Source: an uncultured Rivibacter sp. (GTDB lineage: Bacteria > Pseudomonadota > Gammaproteobacteria > Burkholderiales > Burkholderiaceae). From it: DNA of 64,000 nucleotides. Shown here piece after piece: positions 1,973 to 31,445 of the stretch. The stretch is taken from contig CAMLLU010000012.1 in assembly GCA_946480925.1 (NCBI GenBank), positions 1-64,000 on the forward strand. The letters are read 5' to 3'. Made by a program: the position numbers and the translations under genes. Positions within the stretch are counted from its first letter, which is position 1; each line of letters begins with the position of its first letter. A model generated the notes under the pieces. That model did no database searches. It had not been told where the DNA came from and worked only from the letters and a program-made list of their open reading frames with translations.

Positions 1973-3037
1973 TTACTTGATTTGGCTCTCTTTGTAGTAG
2001 CCGCTGCCTACCAGCACCTGCTTCCAGTTCGAGGCGTCCACGCTCACCGGCTTCAGCAGGTACGAGGGCACCACCTTCGTGCCGTTGTTGTAGGTCTTGG
2101 TGTCGTTGATGGTCGGCTGCTTGCCCGAGAGCACGGCATCCACCAGATCCACCGTTACCTTGGCGAGCTCACGCGTGTCCTTGAACACCGTCGAATACTG
2201 CTCCCCGCGCAGGATGGACTTCACGGAAGGGACCTCGGCGTCCTGGCCGCTCACCACCGGCATCGGCTGCTTGGGCGAGCCATAGCCCACGCCTTTCAGC
2301 GACGACAGGATGCCGATCGACAGCCCGTCGTACGGGCTCAGCACCGCATCGACGCGTGCGCCCGAGTAGTAGGCCGACAGCAGGTTGTCCATGCGGGACT
2401 GCGCCACCGCGCCGTCCCAGCGCAGCGTGCCCACCTTGTCCATGCCCATCTGCTTGCTGCGCACCACCAGCTTGCCGCTGTCGATATGGGGCTTGAGCAC
2501 GCTCATCGCGCCGTCGTAGAAGAAGAACGCGTTGTTGTCGTCGGGCGAGCCGCCGAAGAGCTCGATGTTGAACGGGCCCTTGCCCTGCTTCAGCCCCAGC
2601 TTGTCGACGATGGAGTTGGCCTGCAGCACACCGACCTGGAAGTTGTCGAAGGTGGTGTAGTAGTCCACGTTCTTGGAGTTGCGGATCAGCCGGTCGTAGG
2701 CGATGACCTTCACGCCCTTGTCGGCAGCCTTCTGCAGCGCGTTCGACAGCGTGGTGCCGTCGATGGCCGCGATCACCAGCACCTTGGCGCCCTTGGTGAT
2801 CATGTTCTCCACCTGGGCCAGCTGGTTCGGGATGTCGTCCTCGGCGTACTGCAGGTCGGTCTTGTAGCCCTTGGCCTGGAAGTACTTGACCATGTTCTCG
2901 CCGTCGGAAATCCAGCGAGCCGACGACTTGGTCGGCATCGCGATGCCGATGGTGGCCTTGTCCTGCGCGGCGGCCGGTTGCAGCGCGGCGGCCATCACCA
3001 GCGCGCCCGCAGCGAACAAAGAAATCAAACGCTTCAT
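1973..3037 (-). CDS. chvE: Periplasmic multiple-sugar-binding protein, ChvE-like
   Basis: Periplasmic binding protein for monosaccharides, delivering them to the GguAB importer. 354 residues, the length of Agrobacterium ChvE, which binds galactose, arabinose, glucose and acidic sugars and also feeds the virulence sensor VirA. A Sec signal peptide ([20 protein letters not shown], cleavage near AAA-QD) is followed by the type I periplasmic-binding fold with [16 protein letters not shown], the YDRLI hinge motif and [10 protein letters not shown] near the C-terminal lobe. The ribosome site AGAGGAG lies 8-10 bases before the ATG. It is the second binding-protein gene in this operon, after ytfQ. 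Divergent gbpR upstream of the operon fits the gbpR/chvE pairing seen in Agrobacterium and Azospirillum. Confidence 0.9.
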
Positions 3038-3070
3038 TTACTTGCTCCTCTATTCACAACGGAGACCCAA

Positions 3071-9156: not shown

Positions 9157-10170
9157 TCAGTATGGGTCCAGCGCGGCGGTGAATCGGCCGTTGCCGTCGA
9201 CGGCGCCCCAGGTGTAGCCCTGCCAGCCGGGGTAGGCGGTCGGCTCCCAGTAGAAGACGCCCACGCCGTAGCTGCCCAGCGCGCTGACCTTGGAGATCAG
9301 GTCGGCGACCATCGACTTGGACGCGCTCGCCTGCTGCCAGTCCATGCCCATCTCGGCGATCACCACGGGCTTGCCGTAGCGAGACACCATGTCCTTCATG
9401 TTGGTGTTGACCTGTGCGTTGAGCGACGACCAGTTCGACGCGTTCGGGTAGTGCGACATGCCGATCACGTCGTACTTCGCGCCGTTGGCCTTCATGCCGT
9501 CGAAGAACCAGCGGAAGGTCGTGTTGTTGTAGCCGTTGGCCAGGTGCAGCACGACCTGGGCGCCGGAGAACACCGCCTTCACCGCGCTGTAGCCGCTGTT
9601 GATGAACTTCACGAGGTTGGCGAAGTCGCTGCCCGAGGCCCGGCCATCGGGCCACAGCATGCCGCTGTTGATCTCGTTGCCGACCTGCACCCAGTCGACC
9701 GTCACGCCGTTGTCCTTCAGGTACTTGAGGATGCCGTAGGTGTGCGAGTAGACGTCGTTGACGAGCTGGCTCACGGAATGGCCGGACCACGCGGCAGGCT
9801 TGGTCTGCTGGCCCGGGTCGGCCCAGCTGTCGCTGTAGTGGAAGGTCAGCATGATCTTCTGGCCCTGGGCCGCGGCGCGCTTGGCCTTGTAGAGCGTGTC
9901 CGCGCCGTTGCACCAGCCGCCGCTCGGGTTGACCCACACGCGCAGCCGGATGGCGTTGGTGCCCAGGTTCTTCAGCAGCACGAAGGGGTCGGTCTTCACG
10001 CCGGCTGAGGTGTAGAAGCCGTAGCCGGAGGACTCCTCCTGGCTGATCCAGCTCACGTCGGCGCCCTTGGCGAAGGTGGCCGCCGCCGCCGGCCACACGG
10101 CCGTGCCGGCGGCGATGGCGACCGCCGTCTTCACGAAGGTGCGGCGCGAGAGGTTGTGTTTCTTTGTCAT
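9157..10170 (-). CDS. Arabinogalactan endo-beta-1,4-galactanase, GH53 (Tat-exported)
   Basis: Secreted endo-galactanase that cuts beta-1,4-galactan, the backbone of type I arabinogalactan and side chain of pectin RG-I. 337 residues, a bare catalytic domain. The N-terminus LSRRTFVKTAVAIAAGTA is a twin-arginine signal. GH53 hallmarks are RLRVWVNP (75-82), FHYSDSWADPG (110-120), acid/base Glu166 in QVGNEIN, SHYP (239-242) and nucleophile Glu273 in VIAEMG, ending in GVFYWEP. The product would be galacto-oligosaccharides. It is co-directional with galM and is one of two GH53 genes here; this one lacks the carbohydrate-binding module of the other. The ribosome site AAAGGAGAC is close to the ATG. 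Confidence 0.93.
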   Translation of the reverse strand: MTKKHNLSRRTFVKTAVAIAAGTAVWPAAAATFAKGADVSWISQEESSGYGFYTSAGVKTDPFVLLKNLGTNAIRLRVWVNPSGGWCNGADTLYKAKRAAAQGQKIMLTFHYSDSWADPGQQTKPAAWSGHSVSQLVNDVYSHTYGILKYLKDNGVTVDWVQVGNEINSGMLWPDGRASGSDFANLVKFINSGYSAVKAVFSGAQVVLHLANGYNNTTFRWFFDGMKANGAKYDVIGMSHYPNASNWSSLNAQVNTNMKDMVSRYGKPVVIAEMGMDWQQASASKSMVADLISKVSALGSYGVGVFYWEPTAYPGWQGYTWGAVDGNGRFTAALDPY

Positions 10171-13824: not shown

Positions 13825-15762
13825 CTACTCCTCGCGCAGGAACTCGACGTCGTCGACGTTGCCCCAGTTGCCGGTCTGGCCGTCGACCAGCACGCCCACC
13901 GTGCAGCTGCCGCCGTCCACGACGGGAATGCCGGTGATCGCGTACTGCTTCCACTTCTGCCAGCCGGTGTTCGTCATCGCGACGGCGCGGCGTTGTGCGT
14001 CGCCGCAGCCGCGCGCAAACAGCTCGAGCGCCTTTTCGCCACCGCCGCCGGACGACCACGCCTTGAGCGTGTAGCGGCCCGGCTTGAGCCCGGTGAAGCT
14101 GCGCACGGCCTCGAACCTGAAGGCCTCGCCCTTCCAGTAGTGCAGAGAGTGCAGGCCGCCGTGGGCGTTGCCGGGGTTGCGTTCGTTGCTCGCGGCCGAG
14201 GTGTCGCCGGTGAGCTGCCATTCGGTCAGCACGCCTTTCTCGAAGCCGGGGTCGTCGAAGAGGTTGCGGCGCGGCACCACGTCGACCACGGCCTCCACCT
14301 TCAGCGGCTGGCCCACCGCTTCGCCGCGCAGCGTGAAGCGGCCGGTCTGTGCGAGCGCGTCCTTGGGCACGTCGTCCCACTGCATCCAGGCACTGCGTTC
14401 GGCGTCGTCGCTGAAGGCGAGCCGCACCGATTCAGGCGGCGTCCACGGCTCGCCGGCAAAGGCGGTGAGCTTGAGCGGCGCGCCCTGGAGCAGGCGCGGC
14501 ACGTCCTGCGGTGTGCCGGCTTCGCGCACGCGCTTGAACACGGCCAGCGAGGGCAGGGCCTTGCCGTCGAAGTCGAACATCGCCTGGTTGTCCCAGGCGT
14601 TGCCTTCACCGGTGCGCCAGCCGGCGCGCGGCACCGGCGTCCAGTCCGGCTCCCAGTAGAAGACGCCGAGGCCGCGCCCGCCCGGCACCTGTGCCACGGC
14701 GTCGATCACGTCGCGCACGACGCTGGCCTGGCCTTGCATCGTGGCCTTGTAGCCCACGCTCTTCTGCATCTCGGTGTTGAAGAGGTTGGGCCAGCCGTCG
14801 CCGTCGCGCGTGGTGTAGGCATAGGCGGTTTCCACCACGGCGACCTCCTTGCCGTAGCGCGACGAGATGTCGTCCATGTTGGCGCGCAGGTCGTCGATGG
14901 GGCCGTGGTAGTAGGGGTAGAACGACAGGCCGATCACGTCGTAGTCCACGCCCTGCTTCTGGAAGAGGTCGAACACGCGGCGGTACAGCTCGTTCTTGCC
15001 GCCGTCGGCCAGGTGCACGATGAGTCTGGTGCGCGTGCCGTTGCCGCGCTTCGCATCGGCTTCGCGCACGGCACGAAGGCCCTGCTTCATCAGCGCGACG
15101 AAGCCCTCGTCGCCGCCGATCTGCTCTTCGGGCTTTTCCTTCCAGGTCTTGCCGTCGGGCCAGAGCATGCCGCCGTTGAGTTCGTTGCCGATCTGCACCA
15201 TGTCCGGGTAGACGCCCGCATCGCCGAGGGCCTGCATCACCTGCGTGGTGTAGCGGTGCACTTCCTGCTCGAGCGCGGCGCCCTTCAGGTTGCGCCACGC
15301 GGCCGGCTTGGTCTGCTTGCCGGGGTCGGCCCAGAAGTCGCTGTAGTGGATGTCGAGCAGGAACTTCAGGCCCAGCGCCTTTGCGCGCCTGGCCAGCCGC
15401 ACGGTGGTGGCGAGGTCGTTGTTGCCACCGCCCACCGGCTCGCCGCGGCGCGAGATCGTGCGCCCGCCCTCGATCACGTCGGACTCGTTGACCGGCGTGT
15501 GCCACAGCCGCAGCCGGACCCAGTTGACGCCGTTGTCCTTGACGATCTGCAGCGCATCGCCGCGCTGGCCGTCCAGCCCGTAGAAGCGGCCGCCGTTGCG
15601 CTCGAGCTGGTCGAGCATGGACATGTCGGCGCCCATGATGAAGTCCGGCCGCAGGTCGGCCACCGGCTGCACGGTGATCGCGTCGGCGGCCGATGCGGCG
15701 GTGGAGGCCAGCAGCCCGAGCGCCGCGAGCACGACAGCCGCGCAGTGATGAAGACGTCGCAT
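13825..15762 (-). CDS. Endo-beta-1,4-galactanase, GH53 with C-terminal CBM61-like module
   Basis: Secreted galactanase of 645 residues. Signal peptide at 1-26 (AASAADA). GH53 catalytic domain at about 40-415 with RLRLWHTP, DIHYSDFWADPG, acid/base Glu194 in QIGNELN, SFYPYYHG and nucleophile Glu311 in AVVETAY, then GVFYWEPDW. Around 425-497 is an Ig-like linker of the kind found in GH53 proteins (GRFTLRGEAVGQPLKVEAVV). Residues 500-643 are the CBM61-like beta-sandwich shared with the downstream protein. It would attack insoluble or cell-wall galactan that the bare GH53 at 9157 might bind less well. It follows the porin gene by 130 bases and is likely transcribed with it. Confidence 0.94.
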   Translation of the reverse strand: MRRLHHCAAVVLAALGLLASTAASAADAITVQPVADLRPDFIMGADMSMLDQLERNGGRFYGLDGQRGDALQIVKDNGVNWVRLRLWHTPVNESDVIEGGRTISRRGEPVGGGNNDLATTVRLARRAKALGLKFLLDIHYSDFWADPGKQTKPAAWRNLKGAALEQEVHRYTTQVMQALGDAGVYPDMVQIGNELNGGMLWPDGKTWKEKPEEQIGGDEGFVALMKQGLRAVREADAKRGNGTRTRLIVHLADGGKNELYRRVFDLFQKQGVDYDVIGLSFYPYYHGPIDDLRANMDDISSRYGKEVAVVETAYAYTTRDGDGWPNLFNTEMQKSVGYKATMQGQASVVRDVIDAVAQVPGGRGLGVFYWEPDWTPVPRAGWRTGEGNAWDNQAMFDFDGKALPSLAVFKRVREAGTPQDVPRLLQGAPLKLTAFAGEPWTPPESVRLAFSDDAERSAWMQWDDVPKDALAQTGRFTLRGEAVGQPLKVEAVVDVVPRRNLFDDPGFEKGVLTEWQLTGDTSAASNERNPGNAHGGLHSLHYWKGEAFRFEAVRSFTGLKPGRYTLKAWSSGGGGEKALELFARGCGDAQRRAVAMTNTGWQKWKQYAITGIPVVDGGSCTVGVLVDGQTGNWGNVDDVEFLREE

Positions 15763-15892: not shown

Positions 15893-17155
15893 TCACCACC
15901 AGATTTCGGCTTGCACGCCGTAACGGTTGGCACTCGTGCGGCCGGTGGGCAGGTTGTTGGTGGTGTCGGCCGCGGCGGCGTCGTTCCACTTCGCACGCGT
16001 GTAGAACAGGCGCAGCTCGGGGCGGTCCCAGAAGCCCTTGCCGATGGCCACCGTCGGTGCAATCGTCAGCTTGGCCAGACGCTGCTTCTCGGCGCTGCCC
16101 GGCTTCTTCTCCGACAGGCCGGCTTCGCCGACCAGCTTGAAATTGGTCGTGAACGCATACGACACGCGGCCGCCGAGCGAGGTCGAGCGTGTCTTGTAGT
16201 GGTTGTTGTCGTCTTCCTGCAGGTGTGCAAGCACCTGGCCGCCGAAGTTGCCGACCTGCCAGGTGAAGGCGTCGGCGATGCGCGTGCGCTTGACCGCGCG
16301 GTGCTCTTCGAGCCAGGCCTCGCCGGTGGTCGGGTCGGTGTCGATCCAGTCGTTGCCGTTGCCGCTGAAGGCGTTCTGGAAGTTGCCGTCCAGGCCGGCC
16401 GAACCGCGAGCGAACTGCAGGTACAGCGTGTTGCCGCCGCCCAGGCCGAACAGGTTGTGCTGGTGGTGCTGCAGCGTCAGCGCACTGCCGCTGCGGCCTT
16501 CCAGCGCGTTGCCGTCCTTGTCGACGATGTCTTCGCTGTCCACCCCGGTGGCCAGCACGCGCAGCCAGCCGCCCGGGTTGACGTTGCTGGTGCTGAACTC
16601 CACGTTCAGGCGCGAGGCCGTGCCCCAGCCGGCAAAGCCGGTGTCGCGGCGGAAGTAGGCCACGCCGAGCTTGCCGAAGCCGAGGTCGATGTTGTCGACA
16701 CCACCGCCGGTGCCGTCGAGCTTGGTGTACTTGGTGTCGGTGATGTGGACGTCGCTGCGGCCGTAATAGCGCTTGCCGGCCCAGATGTTCACGCCGGGGG
16801 CAAAGTCGAAGCCGGTGCCTTCGATGAAGGCCTGGCCCAGGCTGGTCGGGTTCGCGGTTTCCTGCGCCTGGCTCCAGTAGACCGGCATGATGTTGCCGCT
16901 GAACTGCAGGCCACCGACCTTCACGGTGTTCTTCAGGTTGATCTCGACGAAGTTGTCGCATTCGTTGCCGAGCCGGTACTTCAGGCTGTCGCCGGCCAAG
17001 CCAAAGCAGGCGGCCGAGTTGTTCTTCACGCCGGCACCGGTGCCGGCACGGAAGTAGCCGTCGGTGCTGAACTGCGCCTGGGCGCCGCCGGCCAGGGCGA
17101 GCAGCGTGGCCGCCGCGCAGGCGCGCAGCGGGAAGTGGGCACGTTGGCTTTGCAT
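15893..17155 (-). CDS. ganL: LamB-like outer-membrane porin, probable galacto-oligosaccharide channel
   Basis: Maltoporin-family beta-barrel of 420 residues. The start at 17155 gives MQSQRAHFPLRACAAATLLA with a signal peptide cleaved near AQA-QF; the open frame to 17275 is not needed. Mature start FSTDGYFRAGTGAG matches the LamB N-terminus (FHGYARSG type), an early Cys pair (CFGL..ECDNF) and PVYWSQAQET, KRYYGRSDVHITD follow, and the chain ends in the outer-membrane signature aromatic residue (EIWW). Although the family is named for maltodextrins, the surrounding galactanases, beta-galactosidases and galactose genes point to galactan oligomers, as for GanL of Dickeya. A LacI-type operator lies 73 bases upstream. 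Confidence 0.85.
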   Translation of the reverse strand: MQSQRAHFPLRACAAATLLALAGGAQAQFSTDGYFRAGTGAGVKNNSAACFGLAGDSLKYRLGNECDNFVEINLKNTVKVGGLQFSGNIMPVYWSQAQETANPTSLGQAFIEGTGFDFAPGVNIWAGKRYYGRSDVHITDTKYTKLDGTGGGVDNIDLGFGKLGVAYFRRDTGFAGWGTASRLNVEFSTSNVNPGGWLRVLATGVDSEDIVDKDGNALEGRSGSALTLQHHQHNLFGLGGGNTLYLQFARGSAGLDGNFQNAFSGNGNDWIDTDPTTGEAWLEEHRAVKRTRIADAFTWQVGNFGGQVLAHLQEDDNNHYKTRSTSLGGRVSYAFTTNFKLVGEAGLSEKKPGSAEKQRLAKLTIAPTVAIGKGFWDRPELRLFYTRAKWNDAAAADTTNNLPTGRTSANRYGVQAEIWW

Positions 17156-17227: not shown

Positions 17228-17243
17228 GGTAAAACGATTAATC
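17228..17243. promoter_or_regulatory. LacI-family operator upstream of the porin gene
   Basis: GGTAAAACGATTAATC, a 16-bp imperfect palindrome centred on CG. Half-sites GGTAAAAC and GATTAATC match those of 24886-24901 and 25031-25046. The probable ligand is the regulator encoded at 30423. Confidence 0.65.
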
Positions 17244-17330
17244 CGAAGGGCGAAAAAGGTCCTTGAAGGGAGCATCAGTTCAGCCTTTCACCGTGCCGAA
17301 GAGCTCTTCTCGGTGCATGCCCGAGCCGAG

Positions 17331-17499
17331 CCAAGCGGCCCCCGCGGATCCGGCTTTGCCGGTCCGCTGGCGTGCCTTGCAGGCCGCGCCGGGCCAGTGG
17401 CCCGGCCCTTCGCCAGGCACAGGAGGTCCACTGGACCTCCTGTGTCCGGGCTCAGCCCCGCTTGAGGGGGAGCGCCGAAGGCGCTACGGGGGTGGGTCA
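17331..17499. repeat. Composite GC-rich repeat (family C) after the permease gene
   Basis: The 348 bases between the porin start and malG-like stop hold the operator at 17228 and this composite. It includes a perfect inverted repeat with 13-bp arms at 17418-17430 and 17432-17444 (CACAGGAGGTCCA arm) and a 39-base segment at 17461-17499 that is the exact reverse complement of 29107-29145. The segment sits a few bases downstream of the permease stop and contains the small hairpin AGCGCC-TTC-GGCGCT. A role in transcript end formation is possible. Confidence 0.7.
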
Positions 17500-17503
17500 T
17501 GTC

Positions 17504-18394
17504 CTAGCCCTTGACGGAACCGGAGGTCAGGCCGGAGACGAGCCAGCGCTGGGTGACCAGGAACAGCAGGGTCAGCGGCAGGCCGGCGAGGATGGCCGTG
17601 GCGGCGAAGTCGCCCCACAGGTAGCGCTGGTTGAACAGGAAGAGGCGCGAGCCCACGGCCAGCGTGAGGTTCTGTTCGTCGTGCAGCAGCACCGAGGCCA
17701 CGGGGTACTCGATCATTCCGCCCAGGAAGGCGAGCACGAACACCACCACGAGGATCGGCATCGCCATCGGCAGCAGCACGTACAGGAAGGCCTGCATCGG
17801 CGTGGCGCCGTCCACCGCGGCGGCCTCTTCGAGCTCGCGCGGCACGCTTTCGTAGTAGCCCTTGATCAGCCAGATGTGCTGGGCCACGCCGCCGGTGTAG
17901 GCCAGTGCCAGGCTCCAGTGGCTGTTGAGGCCGAGCCAGGGGATGACTTCGCCGATGCGGTCGAACAGCGCGTAGATCGCCACCAGCGCCAGCACCGAGG
18001 GGAACATCTGCAGCAGCAGCAGCGCAGCGAGCGTCGCATCACGGCCGCGAAAGCGCATGCGGGCAAAGGCATAGGCGCTGGTGATGGAGAGCACCAGCGA
18101 CACGGTGGCAGCGATGAACGAGACCTTCAGCGAGTTCCAGATCCACTGCAGCACGGGGAAGGGCGGCTTCACGAGCTGGCCGTCGGCGTCGAGGTAGCTC
18201 ATGCCGAGTGCGAGCTTCCAGTGCTCGAAGCTGATGTGCGTGGGGATCAGCTGGCCGCCGGCGAAGTTGCCCGGGCGCAGCGAGATCGACAGGATCATCA
18301 GGAACGGAAACACCGTGATCGCGATGAACGAGAGCAGCAGCACGTGCACGAGCAGCACGCGCCAGCGGTGGGACTTCTTCAGGACGATGGCCAT
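17504..18394 (-). CDS. ganG: ABC transporter permease, MalG/GanG-like
   Basis: Inner-membrane permease of a CUT1 oligosaccharide importer; 296 residues, the length of E. coli MalG. The start MAIVLKKSHRWRVLLVHVLL at 18394 follows AAGGAGA; the upstream extension to 18457 enters a repeat. Six hydrophobic segments are visible and the EAA loop reads ELEEAAAVDGATPMQAFLYV, the contact with the ATPase. It is the fourth transporter gene of the GH35-ganK-ganE-ganF-ganG array, separated from ganF by a family B repeat. Galactan-oligomer specificity is inferred from context rather than from the permease itself. Confidence 0.88.
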   Translation of the reverse strand: MAIVLKKSHRWRVLLVHVLLLSFIAITVFPFLMILSISLRPGNFAGGQLIPTHISFEHWKLALGMSYLDADGQLVKPPFPVLQWIWNSLKVSFIAATVSLVLSITSAYAFARMRFRGRDATLAALLLLQMFPSVLALVAIYALFDRIGEVIPWLGLNSHWSLALAYTGGVAQHIWLIKGYYESVPRELEEAAAVDGATPMQAFLYVLLPMAMPILVVVFVLAFLGGMIEYPVASVLLHDEQNLTLAVGSRLFLFNQRYLWGDFAATAILAGLPLTLLFLVTQRWLVSGLTSGSVKG

Positions 18395-18459
18395 GCATGG
18401 ATCTCCTTGGTGCTTTGCACGGACCGCGAACGCGTGAAACGCAGCGAAGACCAACATCC

Positions 18460-18551
18460 TTCACCGCGGAGGCGCAGAGGGCGCGGAGGATTCGCGGAGG
18501 AATACAGCCCTTCTCTGCGGTCCTCCGCGTTCTCCGTGCCTCCGCGGTGAA
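18460..18551. repeat. Family B palindromic repeat, copy 2
   Basis: 92 bp with ends TTCACCGCGG and CCGCGGTGAA in inverted orientation. It is inserted inside the transporter operon, between the two permease genes, where its stem-loop might attenuate or stabilise the transcript. Confidence 0.8.
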
Positions 18552-18568
18552 TGAATCGGGGTTGCATC

Positions 18569-20101
18569 TCAGCGCTCCTCCTTGCCGACCTTGAAGACCT
18601 TCAGGTTCACGAGCGCGAGCGTCGCGACGATCAGGAACACGATCGACGAGATGGCGCAGGCGAGCGCGTAGTTCTGCCCCGAGTCCTGGAAGGCGATGCG
18701 GTAGGTGTACGAGGCCAGCAGGTCGGTGGCGCCCACGGGCACCTGCGTGTCCAGGAAGTCCGGCGCACCGGCGGTGAGCAGCGCGATCAGCGTGAGGTTG
18801 TTGAAGTTGAACGCGAACGAGGTGATCAGCAGCGGCGCGATCGGCCGCGCGATCAGCGGCAGCGTGATGCGGAAGAAGTTCGTCATCGGCCCCGCGCCGG
18901 CCAGTGCCGAGGCTTCGTACAGGTCAGAGGGGATCGCCTTGATGAGCCCCATCGCGAGGATCATCATGTACGGGTAGCCCAGCCACGCGTTGACCGCGAG
19001 CACCATGCCGCGCGCCAGCGTCGCGTCGGAGAACCAGCCGGGGCGTATGCCGAAGAGGTGGTCGAGGATCAGGTTGATCTCGCCCAGGTTTTCGTTGAAG
19101 AGCCCGCGGAACACCGGGATCGAGATGAACGCCGGCACTGCGTAGGGCAGAAACAGCATCACGCGGTAGAAGTTGCGGCCCTTGAGTGCGTCCCAGTTCA
19201 GCGCGACGGCGAGCGTGACGCCGATCGCGAAGGTGATGAGCGTGTTGAGCGTGGCGAAGGTGACCGTCCAGCCGAACACGCGCGCGAAGGGTTCGAAGAA
19301 GCGCTGGTCGGTGAAGATGCGCACGTAGTTGCGCCAGCCCACTTCGGTGCGGAAGCCGGGTTCGACGCGGCTGCCGTCGGGCAGCTCCCAGAAGCCGGAG
19401 TCGAAGTTTGCGCGCAGCACGGCGCCGTCTTCGCTGCGCGTGAGCGTGCCGTCGGCATTGCGCACGTAGGTCGGGCGGCTGGCGGCGAAGCTGCGCAGGC
19501 CGGTGGAGTGCAGTTCGCTGCCGTCGGGCATGCGGGCGGTCACCTGCTTGAGCGCGGGCTGCAGCGCGATGAGATCTTTCAGCGGCAGCGCCTCCATCGC
19601 CTCATCGGCGGGCTGCGGCTTCAGATCGATGCGCTGTGCCTTGTCGCCGAGCCTGACGGGCGTGGAGGCGTAGCTCGTGCCGTCTTCTGCGGTGAGCCAC
19701 AAGCGGTGGCCGTTGTCGGTGTCCTGCACGCGCAGCGTGTACGGCGTGCCGCTGGTGTCGGTGCGGCCGAGCAGCACCTCGGTGGAGCGCTCGAACGAGA
19801 GCAGGTTCTCGGAGCTGTAGTTCGTGAAGCTGATGGCCAGCGTGTAGGCCATCGGGAACACGATGAACACCAATGCCGCGAACGCGCCGGGCACGACGTA
19901 GCGCCAGGCATACAGGCGCGGCGAGGTGTAGACCCAGGCCGCGACGCCCAGCAGCGCGAGCAGGGCCATCGCCCAGCCGTGCTGGCGCATCGTGTACAGC
20001 AGCGTCACCAGCGCCAGCACGGCGAGCACCGCCAGTGCACCCAACGCCGCCAGCGTCAGGTGGACCGGCGATCGCCGCAAGGTGGTCGTCGCAGTGGTCA
20101 C
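18569..20101 (-). CDS. ganF: ABC transporter permease, MalF/GanF-like
   Basis: Inner-membrane permease of 510 residues (E. coli MalF has 514). It shows the MalF layout: two N-terminal transmembrane pairs, a large periplasmic domain (about 105-270: ENLLSFERSTEVLLGRTDTS onward), then the core permease with LYEASALAGAGPMTNFFRIT as the EAA loop and a C-terminal span. The start is GTG at 20101-20099, overlapping the ganE stop in a GTGA arrangement, so the two are translationally coupled. The start choice is firm because no other in-frame start fits before the first span. Confidence 0.9.
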   Translation of the reverse strand: MTTATTTLRRSPVHLTLAALGALAVLAVLALVTLLYTMRQHGWAMALLALLGVAAWVYTSPRLYAWRYVVPGAFAALVFIVFPMAYTLAISFTNYSSENLLSFERSTEVLLGRTDTSGTPYTLRVQDTDNGHRLWLTAEDGTSYASTPVRLGDKAQRIDLKPQPADEAMEALPLKDLIALQPALKQVTARMPDGSELHSTGLRSFAASRPTYVRNADGTLTRSEDGAVLRANFDSGFWELPDGSRVEPGFRTEVGWRNYVRIFTDQRFFEPFARVFGWTVTFATLNTLITFAIGVTLAVALNWDALKGRNFYRVMLFLPYAVPAFISIPVFRGLFNENLGEINLILDHLFGIRPGWFSDATLARGMVLAVNAWLGYPYMMILAMGLIKAIPSDLYEASALAGAGPMTNFFRITLPLIARPIAPLLITSFAFNFNNLTLIALLTAGAPDFLDTQVPVGATDLLASYTYRIAFQDSGQNYALACAISSIVFLIVATLALVNLKVFKVGKEER

Positions 20102-21287
20102 TCGCCGCCCTTGATGCGCTTGGCGGCCCGGTCGAGGCCGTCCTTCACGGTCTCACGGCCCTGCGTGATGTTCAGCAGCGCGGCCTGCATGGCCGACCAG
20201 AAGCGCGTCATCTCCGGGTTGTTCGGCATCGGCGTGCCGCTTTGCGCGGCGGCGTAGGTGCCGGCGATCAGCGGGTCGACCTTCAGCTCGTTGTAGTAGG
20301 CCTTGTTGGCCGGCACGCCCAGCGGCACGTGCGCGTTCATGGCCTTCAGGCCCTCCATCGAGAGCAGGTAGTTCTCGAGGAACTCGTTGGCCACGTCCTT
20401 GTTCTTGCTGCCGCTGGCGACCATGGCGCCGAGCACGCCGACGAAGGGGCCGCCCTGTTTGCCGTCGATCTTGGGGAAGGGCGCGACGCCGAAGTTGATC
20501 TTGCTCTTCTTGAGGTTGTTCCAGGCCCACGGGCCGTTGATCGTCATCGCGATGCGGCCTTCGTTGACGCCGGCCTCGGCCTCCGCGTAGCTCGCGGTGC
20601 GTGGCATCACGCCGCCCTTGATGAGGCTCACCAGCGTCTCGACGCCGCGCACGGCCCCGGGGGTGTTGACGCCGGTGTCGCGCGGGTCGTAGCTGCCGTC
20701 GGCGTTGCGCTTGAAGGCATAGCCGCCGCCCGCCGAGATCAACCCGTAGGAGTAGTAGATCTCGGTCATCGGCCACATGATGGCGCGCTTGTTCTGCGGC
20801 GTGAGCTTCTTGTCGAGCGCGATCACCTCGTCCCAGCTCTGCGGCGGCGTGGGCACGAGGTCCTTGTTGTAGATGAGCGCCAGCGCCTCGATCGACAGCG
20901 GGTAGCCCCAGGTCTTGCCGCCGATGTTCCAGGCCTTCCAGGCCAGCGGGTCGATGGAGTCGACGGTCTTTTTGGTCGGCGTCACGGGTGAGATCAGCCC
21001 GGCGCTGACCCAGCTGCCCGCGCGGTCGTGCGGCCAGATCCAGATGTCGGGGCCCTTGCCGGCGGCCGCGGCCTGCTCGAACTTCGCGATCGCGTCTTCG
21101 GGGTGCTCGACCTTCACCGCGATGCCGGTGTCCTTGGCGAACTTCTCGCCGATCCTGGCGATGCCTTCGTAGCCCTTGTCCCCGTTGATCCAGATGAGCA
21201 GCGAGCCCTTGCCCTGCGCATGCGCGGCGCCACCCAGGGCGGCCAGCGCGGCGGCGGCGATCAGTGCGCGCGTGGCGCGGCGGCGGT

Positions 21288-21300
<13 letters not shown>
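20098..21300 (-). CDS. ganE: Extracellular oligosaccharide-binding protein, MalE/GanE-like
   Basis: Periplasmic solute-binding protein, 400 residues (E. coli MalE 396). The signal peptide MSALNRRRATRALIAAAALA is cleaved near AHA-QG. The family 1 binding-protein fold is clear: SLLIWINGDKGYEGIARIGE, KVEHPEDAIAKFEQAAAAGK, GPDIWIWPHDRAGSW, YPLSIEALALIYNKD and GPWAWNN. These are the same landmarks as in maltose-binding protein, but the locus has no amylase or maltodextrin enzymes and instead galactan enzymes, so galacto-oligosaccharides are the expected ligand. Its start overlaps the end of ganK by 13 bases. Confidence 0.88.
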
Positions 21301-22457
<1,157 letters not shown>

Positions 22458-22459
22458 GT

Positions 22460-24871
22460 TCAGGCTCCTGCACGCGCCAGGAGGCGCGGCTCGATGCGCC
22501 GTGGCCGGCACAGGGTGATGCGTGCCGCGCGCAGCTCGGCTGCACGCGACGATTGGTCCAGGCGTGCACGCGCGGTCTCTTCCTGGAACACGGGGAGGCC
22601 CGCGCGGCCCGGCACGATATGCAGCTCGAAGGCCGGCCATTGGCCGTTGCCCGCGAAGCGGTCGATGCCGATGGTCCAGGGCTCGCCGTCGTTGAAGTGG
22701 TCGTCCACGAGCACGCCGTCGGCATACAGCCGTGCGGTGTCGCCGACGTAGTCGAGTTCGAGCAGCACGCGCGCTCCATCGGCCGGCGTGTCGTGCAGGT
22801 CGAGGCGCACGCGTGCGGCATAGCGCTCGTACTCGGCATCGTCGGGTGCCAGGGGCACGGCGCGGCGGCGCCATGCGATCACCGGGCCCAGGCGCACGGG
22901 CGGTGGCTCCTGGCGGTCGGCCAGCACCTTCCAGCTCGCACGCGCGGTGCCGGTGTGCGTGGCCGTGACCCGCAGCAGCGCAAAGCCGTTGTCCTGCATG
23001 GACTCGGCCTGCAGGTCGTCGGCCGGGAAGAGGGCCACGCTGGCCGGCGCATCGGCCGGGGCGTCGATCACCAGCGTGTCGCCTTGCGGGTACATCAGGT
23101 GTTCGCACAGCACGATGCGCTCGCGGCCCAGCAGCTGCAGGCGCTGGCAGCGGTCGGCCTCGTCACGCGTGAGCAGCACCAGGGTGTGCGACACGCCCTG
23201 CGCGTCGGTGAACATGACGCGGCGCGGTGCGGTCATGCCCTCGGGCCAGCGCAGCAGCACTTCGCCGGCACCTTGCTCGCGTGCCGCGCCCGGCGCGTCG
23301 ATCTCGCGCAGCGTGGCGGCATCGAAGCACAGCTCCACCGGCTGGCCCGGCAGCGCGAAGGCCACCCAGGTCCAGGCGGCGCCTTCCTGCCAGCGCGTGA
23401 GCGGCTGCACGGTGGCGTGGCGCAGGCATGCCGCGCCGATGGCAGCGTCGAGCGGCCAGATGAAATACGCGCCGCTCTTCACGTCCACGGGCCGGCTCGG
23501 CACCTGGCGCACGGCGTCGCCGGTGCACACCTCGAAACGCACGCCTTCGAAGCCGGGCATCGGGTGATGGCGCACGTGGTTGTTCACGAACAGGAAGCCG
23601 CTCGAACCGATGCCGCGTGCGGCCACGCGGAGCTGGCTGGCATCGGCGGGGTCGGCCGCTGCGCCGTCGGGCAGCACCGCGTCCATCGTGGCGAGTTCGT
23701 CGCCGAAGGCGGCAACGAACTGGTGCAGCGTGCGCAGCCGCCCCCACGACGGGCGTGCCCGGCCGTACTGGCCCAGCGGTGCGCGGAAGTCGTAGCCCAG
23801 CACCGGCACGTCGTTGGGGTAGCCGGTGTCCTGCGTCTCCTGCAGGCGCGCATCGCCCGGCGGGTTGCTGCCGCCGTGATACATGTAATAGCCGTACAGG
23901 TTGGCGCCCGAGCCCACCTGCACCAGCGCGGTCGCGGCCACGTCGTCGGTCTGCACCGCCGGGCGGCGGTGATACGAGACGTGCATGCCGCCGCCGGCCT
24001 CGGCCAGGAAGAACGGGTAGTGCGCCTTGTCGATCAGCCCGGCCGCGGGCGTGCCGCCCACGTTGCCCATCTCGCCGATCGAGCGGCTGGTGTTGAACAG
24101 GAACACGCCCGAAGGCGGCAGCGGCCCGGCGTCGCCCTGCCAGAAGCCGTCGGCATAGGCGCCCGACACCGGCAGCACTTCGCGCGGCGGGATGTCCAGC
24201 GTGGGCCAGCCGGTCACGGTGTAGACCGGCACCACGAGCCCGGCCGCGATGGCCAGGCGCTTGAGTTCGGCAATGTGCTCGGCACCCGCGCCCGGGCCGG
24301 TGCGGTCGTATTCGTTTTCGAGCTGCACCCCGATCACCGGGCCGCCGTCGCGGAACATCAGGCCCTGCAGCTGGCGGCCGATCTCGCCGTAGAAACGCTC
24401 GACGTGGCCGAGGTAGGCCGGGTCGTTGCTGCGCAGCGTGCAGCCGCTTTCAGCCAGCCAGCCGGGGAAGCCGCCGAGGCGCGACTCCGCATGCACCCAC
24501 GGGCCGGGCCGAAGGTAGAAGTCCAGGCCCACCTTGGCGGCCAGCATGACGAAGCGGCGCAGGTCGCGCCGGTCGGTCCAGTCGAAGCGACCGGGCGTTG
24601 CCTCGTGGTGGTTCCAGAACACGTAGCTGGCCACGATGTCGATGCCGCCGGCTTTCATCTTGCGCAGCTCGGCTTCCCATTCGCCGGCCGGGTAGCGCGA
24701 GTAATGGAACTCGCCCATCACCGGCAGCCATGGGCGGCCGTCGCGTTCGAGGTAGCGGCTGTTGACGAAAAGCGAGCGGCCGTCGGATGCGCGCCGCTCG
24801 CCGAGTCGCAGGAAATCGCGTTCGACGGAGGCAGGTGCGCCGGGCAGGCGAAGGGTGATGGTGGCCGTCAC
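22460..24871 (-). CDS. Beta-galactosidase, GH35
   Basis: Glycoside hydrolase releasing terminal beta-galactose; 803 residues, no signal peptide, so cytoplasmic and acting on imported oligomers. The GH35 barrel shows GEFHYSRYPAGEWEAELRKM (53-72), acid/base Glu187 in GVQLENEY and nucleophile Glu291 in YPFFLAEAGGG, followed by long beta-sandwich domains. The start is GTG (24871-24869) giving VTATITLRLPG. Its promoter region faces the GH42 gene and holds an operator 15 bases upstream. It heads the transporter operon. Having both GH35 and GH42 suggests division of labour between chain ends or linkages, which the sequence cannot resolve. Confidence 0.9.
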   Translation of the reverse strand: MTATITLRLPGAPASVERDFLRLGERRASDGRSLFVNSRYLERDGRPWLPVMGEFHYSRYPAGEWEAELRKMKAGGIDIVASYVFWNHHEATPGRFDWTDRRDLRRFVMLAAKVGLDFYLRPGPWVHAESRLGGFPGWLAESGCTLRSNDPAYLGHVERFYGEIGRQLQGLMFRDGGPVIGVQLENEYDRTGPGAGAEHIAELKRLAIAAGLVVPVYTVTGWPTLDIPPREVLPVSGAYADGFWQGDAGPLPPSGVFLFNTSRSIGEMGNVGGTPAAGLIDKAHYPFFLAEAGGGMHVSYHRRPAVQTDDVAATALVQVGSGANLYGYYMYHGGSNPPGDARLQETQDTGYPNDVPVLGYDFRAPLGQYGRARPSWGRLRTLHQFVAAFGDELATMDAVLPDGAAADPADASQLRVAARGIGSSGFLFVNNHVRHHPMPGFEGVRFEVCTGDAVRQVPSRPVDVKSGAYFIWPLDAAIGAACLRHATVQPLTRWQEGAAWTWVAFALPGQPVELCFDAATLREIDAPGAAREQGAGEVLLRWPEGMTAPRRVMFTDAQGVSHTLVLLTRDEADRCQRLQLLGRERIVLCEHLMYPQGDTLVIDAPADAPASVALFPADDLQAESMQDNGFALLRVTATHTGTARASWKVLADRQEPPPVRLGPVIAWRRRAVPLAPDDAEYERYAARVRLDLHDTPADGARVLLELDYVGDTARLYADGVLVDDHFNDGEPWTIGIDRFAGNGQWPAFELHIVPGRAGLPVFQEETARARLDQSSRAAELRAARITLCRPRRIEPRLLARAGA

Positions 24872-24885
24872 GGGGTCAGGTAGGC

Positions 24886-24901
24886 GGTTAAGCGTTTAAT
24901 C
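24886..24901. promoter_or_regulatory. LacI-family operator upstream of GH35
   Basis: GGTTAAGCGTTTAATC, 16-bp palindrome with central CG, halves GGTTAAGC and GATTAAAC. It lies 15 bases from the GTG start of the GH35 gene, a position where bound repressor would block transcription. Confidence 0.7.
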
Positions 24902-24910
24902 TTGTTGCGA

Positions 24911-24924
24911 AGTTTTTCAGCGCG
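24911..24924. promoter_or_regulatory. 14-bp motif shared with the gguC/gbpR region
   Basis: AGTTTTTCAGCGCG, identical to 6901-6914. Both copies have the same orientation relative to a minus-strand operon. Function unknown; possibly a promoter element or site for a common regulator. Confidence 0.35.
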
Positions 24925-25030
24925 AGGGCAGTGAGCCAATAGGGGGAATCCCTGTGAGTTATGACGGAGTTCTGGCTTCTGCTGGGCTTTTTCACGATTT
25001 GACAAGCATTGAGTGATCTGGTTTTATGGA

Positions 25031-25046
25031 GGTTTATCGTTTAACC
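25031..25046. promoter_or_regulatory. LacI-family operator upstream of GH42
   Basis: GGTTTATCGTTTAACC, 16-bp palindrome with central CG, halves GGTTTATC and GGTTAAAC. It ends 27 bases before the GH42 start. Together with 24886-24901 (145 bp apart) it could permit looping between the divergent promoters. Confidence 0.7.
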
Positions 25047-25073: not shown

Positions 25074-27022
<1,949 letters not shown>

Positions 27023-27026
<4 letters not shown>

Positions 27027-28057
27027 GCACCATCCAACGCGTTCTCGTCACCGGCGGTGCCGGCTACATCGGCAGCCACACTTGCGTGCGGCTCATCGAG
27101 GCCGGCATCGAACCCCTGGTGTTCGACAACTTCGCCAACAGCCGCCCCGCCGTGCTGGACCGCATCGCCAGGCTCACCGGCAAGCGGCCATTGCTGGTGG
27201 AAGGCGACGTGCGCGACCGCGAGCTGCTGGCCGCCACGCTGGCGCGCCACCCGGTGCAGGCGGCGATCCACTTCGCGGGCCTGAAGGCCGTGGGCGAATC
27301 GGTGCGTGAGCCGCTCGCCTACTACGACGTCAACGTGCACGGCAGTCTCGTGCTGGCAGAGGCACTGCATGCCGCGGGCGTGCGCACGCTGGTGTTCAGC
27401 TCGTCGGCCACGGTGTACGGCAGCCCCGAGCGTGTGCCGGTCGATGAAAGCGCACCCACCGGGCCGACCAACCCCTACGGCCGCAGCAAGCGCATGGTCG
27501 AGCAGGTGCTCACCGACCTCGTAGCCGCCAACGCCGACTGGTCGGCCACGCTGCTGCGCTACTTCAACCCGGTGGGCGCGCACGAGAGCGGCCTGATCGG
27601 CGAAGACCCGCGCGGCGAGCCCAACAACCTCATGCCCTACATCGCGCAGGTGGCGGCCGGCCAGCGCGAACGCCTCTCCGTGTTCGGCACCGACTACCCC
27701 ACGCCCGACGGCACCGGCGTGCGCGACTACATCCACGTGATGGATTTGGCAGACGGCCACCTCGCCGCGTTGCGCCATACCCACGGCCGCGCCGGCCTGC
27801 ACTGCTACAACCTCGGCACCGGTCGCGGCCACAGCGTGCTGGAGGTAGTGGCTGCCTTCGAGCGCGCCTGCGGCTTTGCCCTTTCGCGCGTGAACGCGCC
27901 GCGCCGCGCGGGCGACGTGGCCGCCTGCTGGGCCGACCCCGCGCATGCCGAGCGGGAGCTGGGCTGGCGCGCAACCACTCAGCTGGCGAGCATGTGCGAA
28001 GACACTTGGCGCTGGCAGTCCCGCAATCCGAACGGCTACGACGACACTGCAACATGA
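27023..28057 (+). CDS. galE: UDP-glucose 4-epimerase
   Basis: Leloir-pathway enzyme converting UDP-galactose to UDP-glucose; 344 residues. The Rossmann motif [12 protein letters not shown] is at about 10-21, catalytic Ser in SSSATVYG and the YxxxK pair in NPYGRSK, followed by RYFNPVGAH and the C-terminal [14 protein letters not shown]. Start ATG overlaps the GH42 stop by 4 bases and its own stop overlaps the galT start by 4 bases, so the chain is translationally coupled. Confidence 0.96.
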
Positions 28058-29109
28058 CCGATCACACGTTCTTCGATCCCGCGGAGCACTCGCACCGGCG
28101 CCGCAACCCGCTGACGGGGCAATGGGTGCTGGTCTCTCCACACCGCGCCAAGCGCCCCTGGCAAGGCCAGCAGGAAGCGCCCGACACCAGCGTGCGGCCG
28201 TCGCACGACCCGCAGTGCTACCTGTGCGCCGGCAACAAGCGCGTCACCGGCGAGCAAAACCCGCAATACACCGGCACCTTCGTCTTCACCAACGACTTCG
28301 CCGCACTCATGCCCGAAGTGCCGCCGGCGGCCGCCTCGGCCCAGGCGGACCCGCTGTGGCGCACCATGAGCGCACGCGGCACCAGCCGCGTGATCTGCTT
28401 CTCGCCCGACCACGCACGCACGCTGCCCGAGCTGCCGCTGCCCGCCATCGAGCAGGTGGTCGATACCTGGTGCGAGCAGAGTGCCGAGCTCGGCCGGCAA
28501 TACCGCTGGGTGCAGGTGTTCGAGAACAAGGGCGCGGCCATGGGCTGCTCCAACCCGCACCCGCACGGCCAGATCTGGGCCACCGACTTCCTGCCCAACG
28601 AGGCCGCAGCCGAAGACCAGCACCAGCGCGCCTGGTACGCCGAGCATGGCCGCCCGCTGCTGCTCGACGTCGTCGAACGTGAGCTCCTGTCGAACGAGCG
28701 CATCGTCGTCGAAACCGAGCACTGGCTGGCCATCGTGCCGTTCTGGGCCACCTGGCCTTTCGAGACGCTGCTGCTGCCGCGCCGCGCAGTGCAGCGCCTG
28801 CCGCAACTCGACACCGCGCAGCGCGCCGACCTCGCACTGGCCGTGAAGAAGCTGACCAGCCGCTACGACAACCTGTTCCGCTGCTCGTTCCCGTACTCGA
28901 TGGGCTGGCACGGCGCACCGTTCGATGCGGACAACGCCGCACCCTGGCAGCTGCACGCGCACTTCTACCCGCCGCTGCTGCGTTCGGCTTCGGTGCGCAA
29001 GTTCATGGTCGGCTTCGAGATGCTGGCCGAAGCACAGCGCGACCTCACCCCCGAACAGGCAGCCGCGATGCTGCGCGCGCTGCCCGACGTCCACTACAGC
29101 CGGACGTGA
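28054..29109 (+). CDS. galT: Galactose-1-phosphate uridylyltransferase
   Basis: Transfers UMP from UDP-glucose to galactose-1-phosphate; 351 residues, class I like E. coli GalT (about 348). The ATG at 28054 overlaps the galE stop and gives [20 protein letters not shown]. Zinc/active-site landmarks are [24 protein letters not shown] and the catalytic NPHPHGQIW, with the C-terminal [20 protein letters not shown]. It is separated from galK by 148 bases containing a family C repeat that begins at its own stop codon. Confidence 0.96.
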
Positions 29110-29215
29110 CCCACCCCCGTAGCGCCTTCGGCGCTCCCCCTCAAGGGGGCGCCGCCAGCGGCCCCGGCAAAGCCGGTTCCGCGGCGTCCGCTGGGCTGCG
29201 GCGCCTGCGGGTGAA
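29107..29215. repeat. Family C repeat after galT
   Basis: The first 39 bases (29107-29145) are the exact reverse complement of 17461-17499; both copies begin at or just beyond a stop codon. GCGCCGCCAGCGGCCCCGGC and CAAAGCCGGTTCC follow. Contains hairpin AGCGCC-TTC-GGCGCT. Confidence 0.7.
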
Positions 29216-29257: not shown

Positions 29258-30421
29258 ATGAACTCAAACCCCACTGTCCTCACCACGGCCCGCGAGGCCT
29301 TCGAACGCGCCTTCGGGCGCTCGCCACAACGCTTCGTGCAGGCCCCCGGCCGCGTCAATCTGATCGGCGAACACACCGACTACAACGACGGCTTCGTGCT
29401 GCCCTGTGCCATCGACCGTGGCACGGTGGTCGCCGCCGCACCGCGTGACGACGCGCGGGTGCGCGTGGTGGCCGCCGACTGGCAACACGAGATCGACGAG
29501 TTCGTGCTCGACGCGCCCATCGAGCCGCGTGCCGACGCGCGCTGGCCCAACTACGTGCGCGGCGTGGTGAAGCACCTGCTCGCGCACGGCCTGCCGCTGC
29601 GCGGCCTCGACCTTGCCGTGGCCGGCGACGTGCCCTCTGGTGCCGGCCTGTCGTCTTCAGCCTCGCTGGAGGTGGCGCTGATCCAGGCCTTCAAGACCCT
29701 GCAGGGTTTCGACGAGCTCGACCCGACGACCATGGCGCTGATCGCGCAAGCCGCCGAGAACCGCTTCGTCGGCTGCAACTGCGGGATCATGGACCAGCTC
29801 ATCTCGGCACGCGGCGAGACGGGTCACGCGCTGCTCATCGACTGCCGCTCGCTCGAAGCGAAGCCGGTCGTGCTGCCCGCGGGCGTGGCGGTCATGATCG
29901 TGGACTCGCGCGTGCAGCGTGGGCTGGTCGAAAGCGAATACAACACGCGCCGCCGCCAGTGCGAAGCCGCTGCCGCCGCCCTGGGCGTGAAGGCTCTGCG
30001 CGACGTGACGCCCGAAGTGCTGGCCGCGCGCGGCCACGAGCTCGAGCCGTTGGTGCTGCGCCGTGCGCGCCACGTCGTCAGCGAGAATCAGCGCACCCTC
30101 GACGCCGCGCAGGCACTGGCCAGCGGCGACCTCCGGACCATGGGCCAGCTGATGGCCGATTCCCACATTTCGATGCGCGACGATTTCGAGATCACCGTGC
30201 CCCCGATCGACCAGCTGGTCGAGTTGCTGCAGCAGGCCATCGGCAAAGAGGGCGGCGCCCGCATGACCGGCGGCGGCTTCGGCGGCTGCGTGGTCGCGCT
30301 GCTGCCCGAGTCGCGCGTCGGGGCCGCACAGGAAGCCGTGCTGCGCAGCTACCGCGCGCCCAATGGCGAGGCCGCGAGCATCCACCTGTGCCGCGCCGCC
30401 TCGGGAGCCGGCGCGCTGTGA
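29258..30421 (+). CDS. galK: Galactokinase
   Basis: Phosphorylates alpha-galactose; GHMP kinase of 387 residues. Motif 1 [20 protein letters not shown] (residues 29-48) is the galactokinase signature; the ATP loop is [19 protein letters not shown], and motif 3 [15 protein letters not shown]. An in-frame longer start exists in a repeat, but [20 protein letters not shown] is the natural N-terminus. The stop lies 1 base before the lacI-type regulator's ATG, so regulator and kinase are co-transcribed. Confidence 0.96.
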
Positions 30422-30422
30422 C

Positions 30423-31445
30423 ATGACCACCATCGTCGAAGTCGCACAGCACGCGGGCGTTACCGCGGCCACCGTCTCGAACGTGCTGCGCGGGCGCGGC
30501 AAGGTGGGCGCGGCCACGCGGGCCCGCGTGCTGGCCGCGGTGGAAGAGCTGGGCTACCGGCCCAACCTGAACGCGCGCGCCTTGGTCGAGGGCAGGCCTT
30601 CGACCATCGCCATGGTCGTTTCCAGCATCGCCAACCCGTTCTACCCGGAGTTCGCACTCGCGGCCGAGCAGGCGGTGCGCAAGCTGGGCTACTTCCTCAT
30701 CGTCTGCAACACCAACGACGACCCCGTGCAGGAAAAGGCCTACCTCGACGCCGTGGGCGGCTCGCTGGCGCACGGCGTGCTCGTGATGAACGCCGACTTC
30801 GTGCAGATCGACGAGCTGCTTTCGCTGCGCCAGCGCGGCGTGCCGGTCGTGCTGTGCATGTGGGAAAAGCCGGACGAACCGCCCGCGCTGCCCTGCGTGG
30901 CGGTGGACTTCCAGCGCGCCGGCGTGATCGCCGCCGAACACCTCATCAAGCTCGGCCACCAGCGCATCGGCGCGGTGGTGGGCAGCGAGCCGAGCGGCAA
31001 CCACATCTGGCGCTACCGCGGCTTCTGCGAGGCGCTCGAACGTGCCGGCATTGCGCACGACCCGGCTGCCGCGCACTTCGGCCACGACACCATCGACGCT
31101 GGCCGCAGCGCGGCCCATGCGCTGCTCGCGGCCGTGCCCGACCTCACGGCCATCTTCGTGTCGAACGACCTGCCGGCCATCGGCGTGCTGCAGGCCGCGG
31201 CCGACCTGGGCCTCGACGTGCCGCAAGACCTTTCGGTCATCGGCATCACCGACATCCAGCTCGCTCACCAGGTGCGTCCCGCGCTGACGACCGTGTCGGT
31301 GCCCACGGACGAAGCCGCCGAACTCGCGGTGGCGATGATGATGGACATGATCCGCCACCAGGGCGAAACCGCACCGGCCTCGGTGCGCACGACCTCTGCG
31401 CCGCGCCTGGTGGTGCGCGCCTCGACTGCTCGGGCACCTCGTTGA
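30423..31445 (+). CDS. ganR: LacI-family transcriptional regulator, probable galactan-locus repressor
   Basis: 340 residues. The N-terminal helix-turn-helix and hinge (1-58) read MTTIVEVAQHAGVTAATVSN and LGYRPNLNARALVEGR, the LacI DNA-binding pattern with the AR-L hinge. A type I periplasmic-binding effector domain follows (IAMVVSSIANPFYPE, VAVDFQRAG, FVSNDLPAIGVLQAA). The gene is last in the GH42-galE-galT-galK operon and ends at a strong terminator. Three CG-centred palindromes fitting LacI-family operators lie before the porin, GH35 and GH42 genes, so local autoregulated control is likely. The inducer is unknown; galactose or galactobiose is plausible. Confidence 0.88.
   Translation: MTTIVEVAQHAGVTAATVSNVLRGRGKVGAATRARVLAAVEELGYRPNLNARALVEGRPSTIAMVVSSIANPFYPEFALAAEQAVRKLGYFLIVCNTNDDPVQEKAYLDAVGGSLAHGVLVMNADFVQIDELLSLRQRGVPVVLCMWEKPDEPPALPCVAVDFQRAGVIAAEHLIKLGHQRIGAVVGSEPSGNHIWRYRGFCEALERAGIAHDPAAAHFGHDTIDAGRSAAHALLAAVPDLTAIFVSNDLPAIGVLQAAADLGLDVPQDLSVIGITDIQLAHQVRPALTTVSVPTDEAAELAVAMMMDMIRHQGETAPASVRTTSAPRLVVRASTARAPR

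Follow-up and report, generated by a model that had tools for sequence, protein, structure and literature searches.

The gan locus of Dickeya and Pectobacterium has a GanR. In Bacillus, a repressor of this name is released by beta-1,4-galactobiose, according to the sections of PMC5472308 used here. For LacI-family regulons at large, the portions of Ravcheev 2014 that we cite (PMC4052901) describe operators that are even palindromes with a central CG, 16 nt being among the usual lengths, and they list GanR for galactosides; no betaproteobacterial galactan regulon figures in these portions. Among the matches listed from the openly licensed literature, there is also no study in Betaproteobacteria of a regulator of the type considered below, which is encoded at 30423 in the window, the whole stretch of 64 kb of DNA that was analysed.

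Gene content of the galactan locus

On the plus strand of the window, a GH42 beta-galactosidase (25074..27026), a galE-like NAD-dependent epimerase (27023..28057) and galT, coding for galactose-1-phosphate uridylyltransferase (28054..29109, scanned as ORF 27994-29109), were all assigned by Pfam scan. They are followed by galK, the galactokinase gene (29258..30421), and by a LacI-family regulator of 340 amino acids (30423..31445), the start of which comes directly after the end of galK. On the minus strand, the run that begins with a GH35 beta-galactosidase (22460..24871, Pfam scan) continues with a MalK-like ABC ATPase (21288..22460, start approximate; ORF 21288-23108 displays ABC_tran, OB_MalK and TOBE_2), a MalE-like solute-binding protein (20098..21360, start approximate; ORF 20098-22839), a MalF-like permease (18569..20101), a MalG-like permease (17504..18457), a LamB-type porin (15893..17155) and a GH53 endo-galactanase with a Big_4 domain (13825..15762). 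Beyond this GH53 gene, the run comprises a CBM48-type gene, a gene for a protein without Pfam match, a TonB-type gene, a second GH53 endo-galactanase (9157..10170, minus strand) and an aldose epimerase. By gene content, this is a locus for the use of beta-1,4-galactan.

Two features of these runs are recorded here as such. The segment 10226-12692, inside the porin-GH53 run, codes for a TonB C-terminal-type protein and for the 508-amino-acid protein without Pfam match; a TonB C-terminal-type gene is unexpected next to a LamB-type porin. An identical GC-rich element of 27 bases with an inverted core is present at 17461-17487, in the gap between malG and the porin gene, and at 29119-29145, in the gap between galT and galK, in opposite orientations.

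The regulator, scanned as ORF 30363-31445, has the architecture of the LacI/GalR family: an N-terminal LacI HTH (PF00356, 61.5 bits for a cut-off of 27), then a periplasmic-binding-protein-like domain (Peripla_BP_3, PF13377, 126.8 bits for a cut-off of 26.5). Its domains and the gene order bear out an earlier note on this DNA, which had a LacI-family regulator closing the GH42 run, and its LacI HTH is the only one among the 50 window translations scanned. The protein cluster to which it belongs is known from nine contigs, the next protein being 90% identical. Of the named genomes in the collection searched, that of Rhizobacter sp. Root1221 comes nearest, its regulator being 79% identical.

Predicted operator sites in the window

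Three palindromic sites of 16 bp share the consensus GRTTAANCGNTTAAYC, with the half-site GRTTAA and the full form GRTTAA-NCGN-TTAAYC. The one with the highest matrix score, GGTTAAGCGTTTAATC (24886..24901, minus strand, 28.5 bits), is located 14 bp 5′ of the GTG start of the GH35 gene (24871). The second, GGTAAAACGATTAATC (17228..17243, minus strand, 23.4 bits), is 72 bp 5′ of the start of the LamB-type porin gene (17155), and the third, GGTTTATCGTTTAACC (25031..25046, plus strand, 20.3 bits), 27 bp 5′ of the start of the GH42 gene (25074). The earlier note had placed these sequences at 17228, 24886 and 25031, ahead of the genes for porin, GH35 and GH42, with 145 bp between the members of the divergent GH35/GH42 pair: all three are found at exactly these positions, the spacing is correct and the flanking genes agree with the Pfam and ORF assignments. 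Even palindromic operators with a central CG, as in the LacI/GalR family, are present in the target promoters.

The same note had seen no other operators in the regulatory regions that it examined, and both a consensus scan and a matrix made without the window sites return only three strong matches in the 64 kb. When up to three mismatches were allowed, the degenerate consensus was found at three places only, each matched on both strands, for an expectation of 0.25 matches per 64 kb in shuffled sequences. The matrix was made of 20 distinct sites from other genomes, those of the window being left out to avoid circularity; as the search pattern behind these 20 sites goes back to the window, the permuted-pattern control given below is a fairer test. 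After the three sites, the matrix scan gave 14.3 bits as the next best score (at 3023) and at most 8.5 bits everywhere else in the window, with no operator for the second GH53 gene on its own. In simulated 64-kb sequences of the same dinucleotide make-up, scores of at least 16 bits average 0.01 per 64 kb. It might be argued that the three sites are chance palindromes, the best of 100 such simulated sequences having contained a site of 20.9 bits; yet they stand at three galactan promoters and are conserved in relatives, which makes chance an exceedingly improbable explanation.

As to the weak operator-like site at 3023-3038, AATCAAACGCTTCATT, it overlaps the start of a sugar-binding-protein gene. 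It was left out of the operator set; the chance expectation for scores of at least 14 bits is about 0.03 per 64 kb.

Sites and regulators in relatives

Conservation was followed in 80 loci encoding relatives of the regulator, the best 80 of 164 confirmed. Sixty-nine of these loci contain the exact GRTTAANCGNTTAAYC – many of them from close kin (Paraburkholderia, Caballeronia), so that 69 loci are not 69 independent events – and 74 contain it when one mismatch is allowed. At that same tolerance, 25 permuted half-sites were found in a mean of 0.52 and a maximum of three of the same 80 loci. The six nearest loci (L001-L006, regulators 69-79% identical) belong to Rhizobacter, Uliginosibacterium (twice), Pelomonas, Rubrivivax and Andreprevotia. 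Their sites, several of which carry one or two mismatches, precede GH42, GH35, galE or the regulator itself, and relatives in this range of identity also have the operator before GH53 or porin genes. Thus, it is found 5′ of GH53 in Rubrivivax, and two sites accompany a Rhizobacter porin, 75% identical to that of the window, that lies ahead of GH53 genes on a different contig from the regulator. By contrast, no site of at least 13 bits was found in the 4.5-kb stretch around the Uliginosibacterium porin, which follows malG and may depend on a promoter further upstream; this absence makes the porin site less secure than the other two as a conserved part of the predicted regulon. Among the wider-group loci displayed, the site is mostly directly 5′ of the regulator, the divergent gene being of the MalK type in the one that was checked.

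Whole-genome scans covered eight genomes (at most one mismatch) and 12 more (exact match), hand-picked from the 80 loci. In the eight, 22 sites were found against three for the reversed control, and gene context places 17 of the 22 at galactan-type or regulator genes, counting one inside galT ahead of galK and another inside the called start of an AraC-type gene that is followed by an epimerase. The remaining five are located between TauE and terminase-like genes (one), beside a different LacI gene and ThuA (two), beside an enolase-family gene (one) and within a sulfotransferase gene (one). Random scatter of motif matches, named in the earlier note as an argument against a regulon, is not what these genomes display. 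In Rhizobacter sp. Root1221, the pair before the porin makes the only two matches genome-wide, the GH35/GH42 sites having two mismatches and therefore not being counted. In Uliginosibacterium, five of the six matches are at GH35/GH42, at galETK, at two separate GH53 genes (both on other contigs) and at the AraC-epimerase pair.

Eleven of the 12 further genomes have an exact match, and nine of them have exactly one. By coordinates, the exact site is at the fetched regulator locus in ten; in the eleventh (G167) a second regulator, 58.5% identical, is its neighbour. The Rhizobacter family was represented by 150 genomes: four of these encode a relative of the regulator (E 1e-60 or better) and three have an exact site, two of these three being among the four. 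The other two regulator-bearing genomes are without an exact site, one of them being the Rhizobacter with the one-mismatch pair. In the third exact-site genome (G065) the site is beside another LacI-type regulator, 31% identical. Given this match (one of the 150 genomes), the five of 22 matches away from galactan and regulator genes and the one inside galT, the motif is not exclusive to the 30423-type regulator.

The relatives also inform the significance of the 145-bp pair, from which the earlier note had suggested looping: a single repressor assembly would bridge 24886 and 25031 and shut both promoters. Two sites are indeed present in the corresponding intergenic region of the window and of five of the six closest relatives fetched (L001, L002, L003, L005, L006), and at 11.0 bp per turn the spacings lean to one phase (p about 0.07). 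However, the seven pair spacings compared (145, 114, 265, 91, 192, 269 and 199 bp) are not conserved, and the Rayleigh test gives them no shared helical phase at 10.5 bp per turn (p about 0.67) or at 10.0 (p 0.88). Furthermore, many relatives are single-site, the wider group having mostly one site per locus (76 sites in 74 loci, at most one mismatch), and each of the two window sites has its own adjacent gene. A tetramerisation tail did not show up in local alignments, in which residues 3-339 of the regulator match PurR and the match with LacI ends at residue 310 of 340. We find looping improbable, though contacts of another kind between dimers could still allow it, and one operator for each of the divergent promoters reads the pair more simply. 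While this part of the earlier proposal is not supported, the remainder, a galactan regulon with LacI-family logic, is upheld by the sites, by the family of the regulator and by conservation in relatives.

Some of the relatives follow another rule. At L076-L080, the regulators (55-57% identity) are without the usual motif, and two copies of ATTTAANCGNTTAAAT, spaced by 55-56 bp, precede the regulator gene, at about 9.8 kb of the locus (in L008 the pair is at 18923 and 18978). A sixth regulator, that of L099 (47% identity), has ATTTAANCGNTTAAAT once. In a tree of 28 rows, the six ATTTAANCGNTTAAAT regulators (47-57% identity) make one side of a fully supported branch. Both kinds of regulator are found in L008: a GRTTAA site precedes the one of 61% identity, and the ATTTAA pair the one of 55%. 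In the genome of L080, the second regulator is likewise accompanied by a GRTTAA site; in both genomes with the two kinds (L008; L080 and L125) each motif is thus beside its own regulator. The fact that a separate branch has its own operator ties the operator sites to the regulator lineage of 30423. Identity alone cannot separate the two kinds of motif, because L075 retains GRTTAA at only 56%; in L006 (69%), a GRTTAA site even has an ATTTAA-type neighbour 21 bp away. Residue 12 of the HTH is different (R or Q) in five of the six sister regulators, as is the loop that follows the recognition helix. Residue 12 as the sole determinant of the motif was rejected, as the L099 regulator has G12 and yet the ATTTAA motif. 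A single switch on a single branch is a correlation, which does not single out the residue responsible. Nevertheless, these sister regulators, some of which share a genome with a GRTTAA regulator, offer a natural pair for the study of a change in DNA specificity within the LacI family.

These distributions bear on the idea that 30423 acts on other genes and that the sites are those of a different LacI-family regulator, with its gene at some other place in the genome. Similar even palindromes do serve other LacI regulators, as in G065 and at the ThuA divergon. Yet the ten genomes with the exact site at the regulator locus, the eleventh with the site beside a second regulator of the group, the nine genomes where it is the sole exact match and the different motif of the sister branch at its own locus all go against the idea, which we regard as very unlikely. 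On the strength of sequence comparison, the three sites are very probably operators of the LacI family that go best with the local regulator and mark a galactan or galactoside regulon.

Putative promoters, proposed mechanism and comparison with known systems

A putative promoter of the GH42 operon (24999..25027, plus strand) associates TTGACA (24999-25004), a spacer of 17 bp and TTTTAT (25022-25027), and the GH42 operator begins three bases past TTTTAT. With the operator directly after the -10 hexamer, the transcription start is predicted inside the operator, and a bound repressor would cover it. A stricter promoter scan listed no promoter in either region; it misses that of GH42 because TTTTAT is without the A at position 2. 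At the GH35 and porin sites of the window no comparable promoter was found. A perfect TTGACA is located just 5′ of the operator in four of 21 site-directions (window, L003, L005, L006), for a background rate of 6.7e-5 per position; in L003 it is so near the operator that the -10 would fall inside it. An operator right after the -10 is in a repressing position. This location at GH42 argues against the view that the 30423 regulator activates instead of repressing, or does both, and the Bacillus GanR is a repressor as well (PMC5472308, in the sections used); activation has, to us, very little likelihood.

A further element, GGG-N4-CCC, is present at 24943-24952 (minus strand), 41 bp 5′ of the GH35 operator, where it adjoins a TTG, a possible -35. 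Its exact form is found 37-42 bp 5′ of GH35 or porin operators in the window and at L001, L002, L005 and L084; as L001 and L084 are one genome, this amounts to the window and three relatives, with two promoters in Rhizobacter. This enrichment rests on a subset chosen after the fact, and all 192 operator-directions together give six matches (one element counted twice), where a rate of 1.35% per 75 bp predicts about 2.6. When ATTG was added to the element, five genomes gave 13 matches against three in the control. One of these 13 loci, the GH35/GH42 region of G004, displays a relative of the galactan-locus genes of the window, and because the genes at the other 12 are not named, no wider regulon is drawn. 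That GGG-N4-CCC is a second conserved element of the GH35 and porin promoters, the site of a putative activator, is a tentative and rather doubtful proposal. If true, it would place the galactan genes under double control, by the local repressor and by a separate activator.

Returning to the operators, it is very likely, judging from sequence, that 30423 encodes a GanR-like LacI-family repressor of a galactan regulon, acting at three promoters and released by galacto-oligosaccharides. From the arrangement described above we infer that the protein binds the sites, that it represses and does not activate, how the operons are composed and what the inducer is. A dimer of the repressor would bind the 16-bp palindrome at the three promoters and control three units: GH42-galE-galT-galK with the repressor gene itself, GH35 with the malKEFG-type transporter, and the porin with GH53. 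Without galactan fragments, it would cover the transcription start and block RNA polymerase. Small beta-1,4-galacto-oligosaccharides would enter via the porin and the transporter, and release the repressor; by analogy with Bacillus, the inducer is probably beta-1,4-galactobiose. As the repressor gene is the last of one of the target runs, we propose that it would limit its own level.

How does this compare with the systems already described? Judged from genes and sites, the content of the regulon is of the GanR type, with GH53, GH42 and an oligosaccharide ABC transporter. In Ravcheev 2014 (PMC4052901, in the portions cited), sites are mostly 30-140 bp before the start codon, whereas two of the three window sites are closer. 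As the sections used of PMC5472308 describe it, the GanR/ganSPQAB system of Bacillus subtilis is alike in having a LacI-like repressor and inverted-repeat operators at the promoters for galactan use. The operator differs: AGTAAA-N4-TTTACT in Bacillus, GRTTAA-NCGN-TTAAYC in the window, the half-site of which is not AGTAAA. So does its position, since two motifs are located just 5′ of the -35 of ganS while the GH42 operator of the window comes after the -10. In the sections cited of PMC3544676 and PMC7843439, the gan genes of Dickeya and Pectobacterium (ganEFGAB, and ganL for the porin) associate porin, transport, endogalactanase and exogalactanase, as here, while the cluster of the window also includes, or has as neighbours, galETK, GH35, a second GH53 and a TonB-type gene. 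For Betaproteobacteria, the window offers a galactan switch that is simple for experiments, with a conserved operator and predictable targets; it leaves the known picture of the LacI family unchanged. A GanR-like repressor with its regulon in a betaproteobacterium (placed by its relatives) is a system of an already known kind, and this predicted regulon includes porin, GH35 and galETK, unlike the ganSPQAB set of Bacillus as described in those sections.
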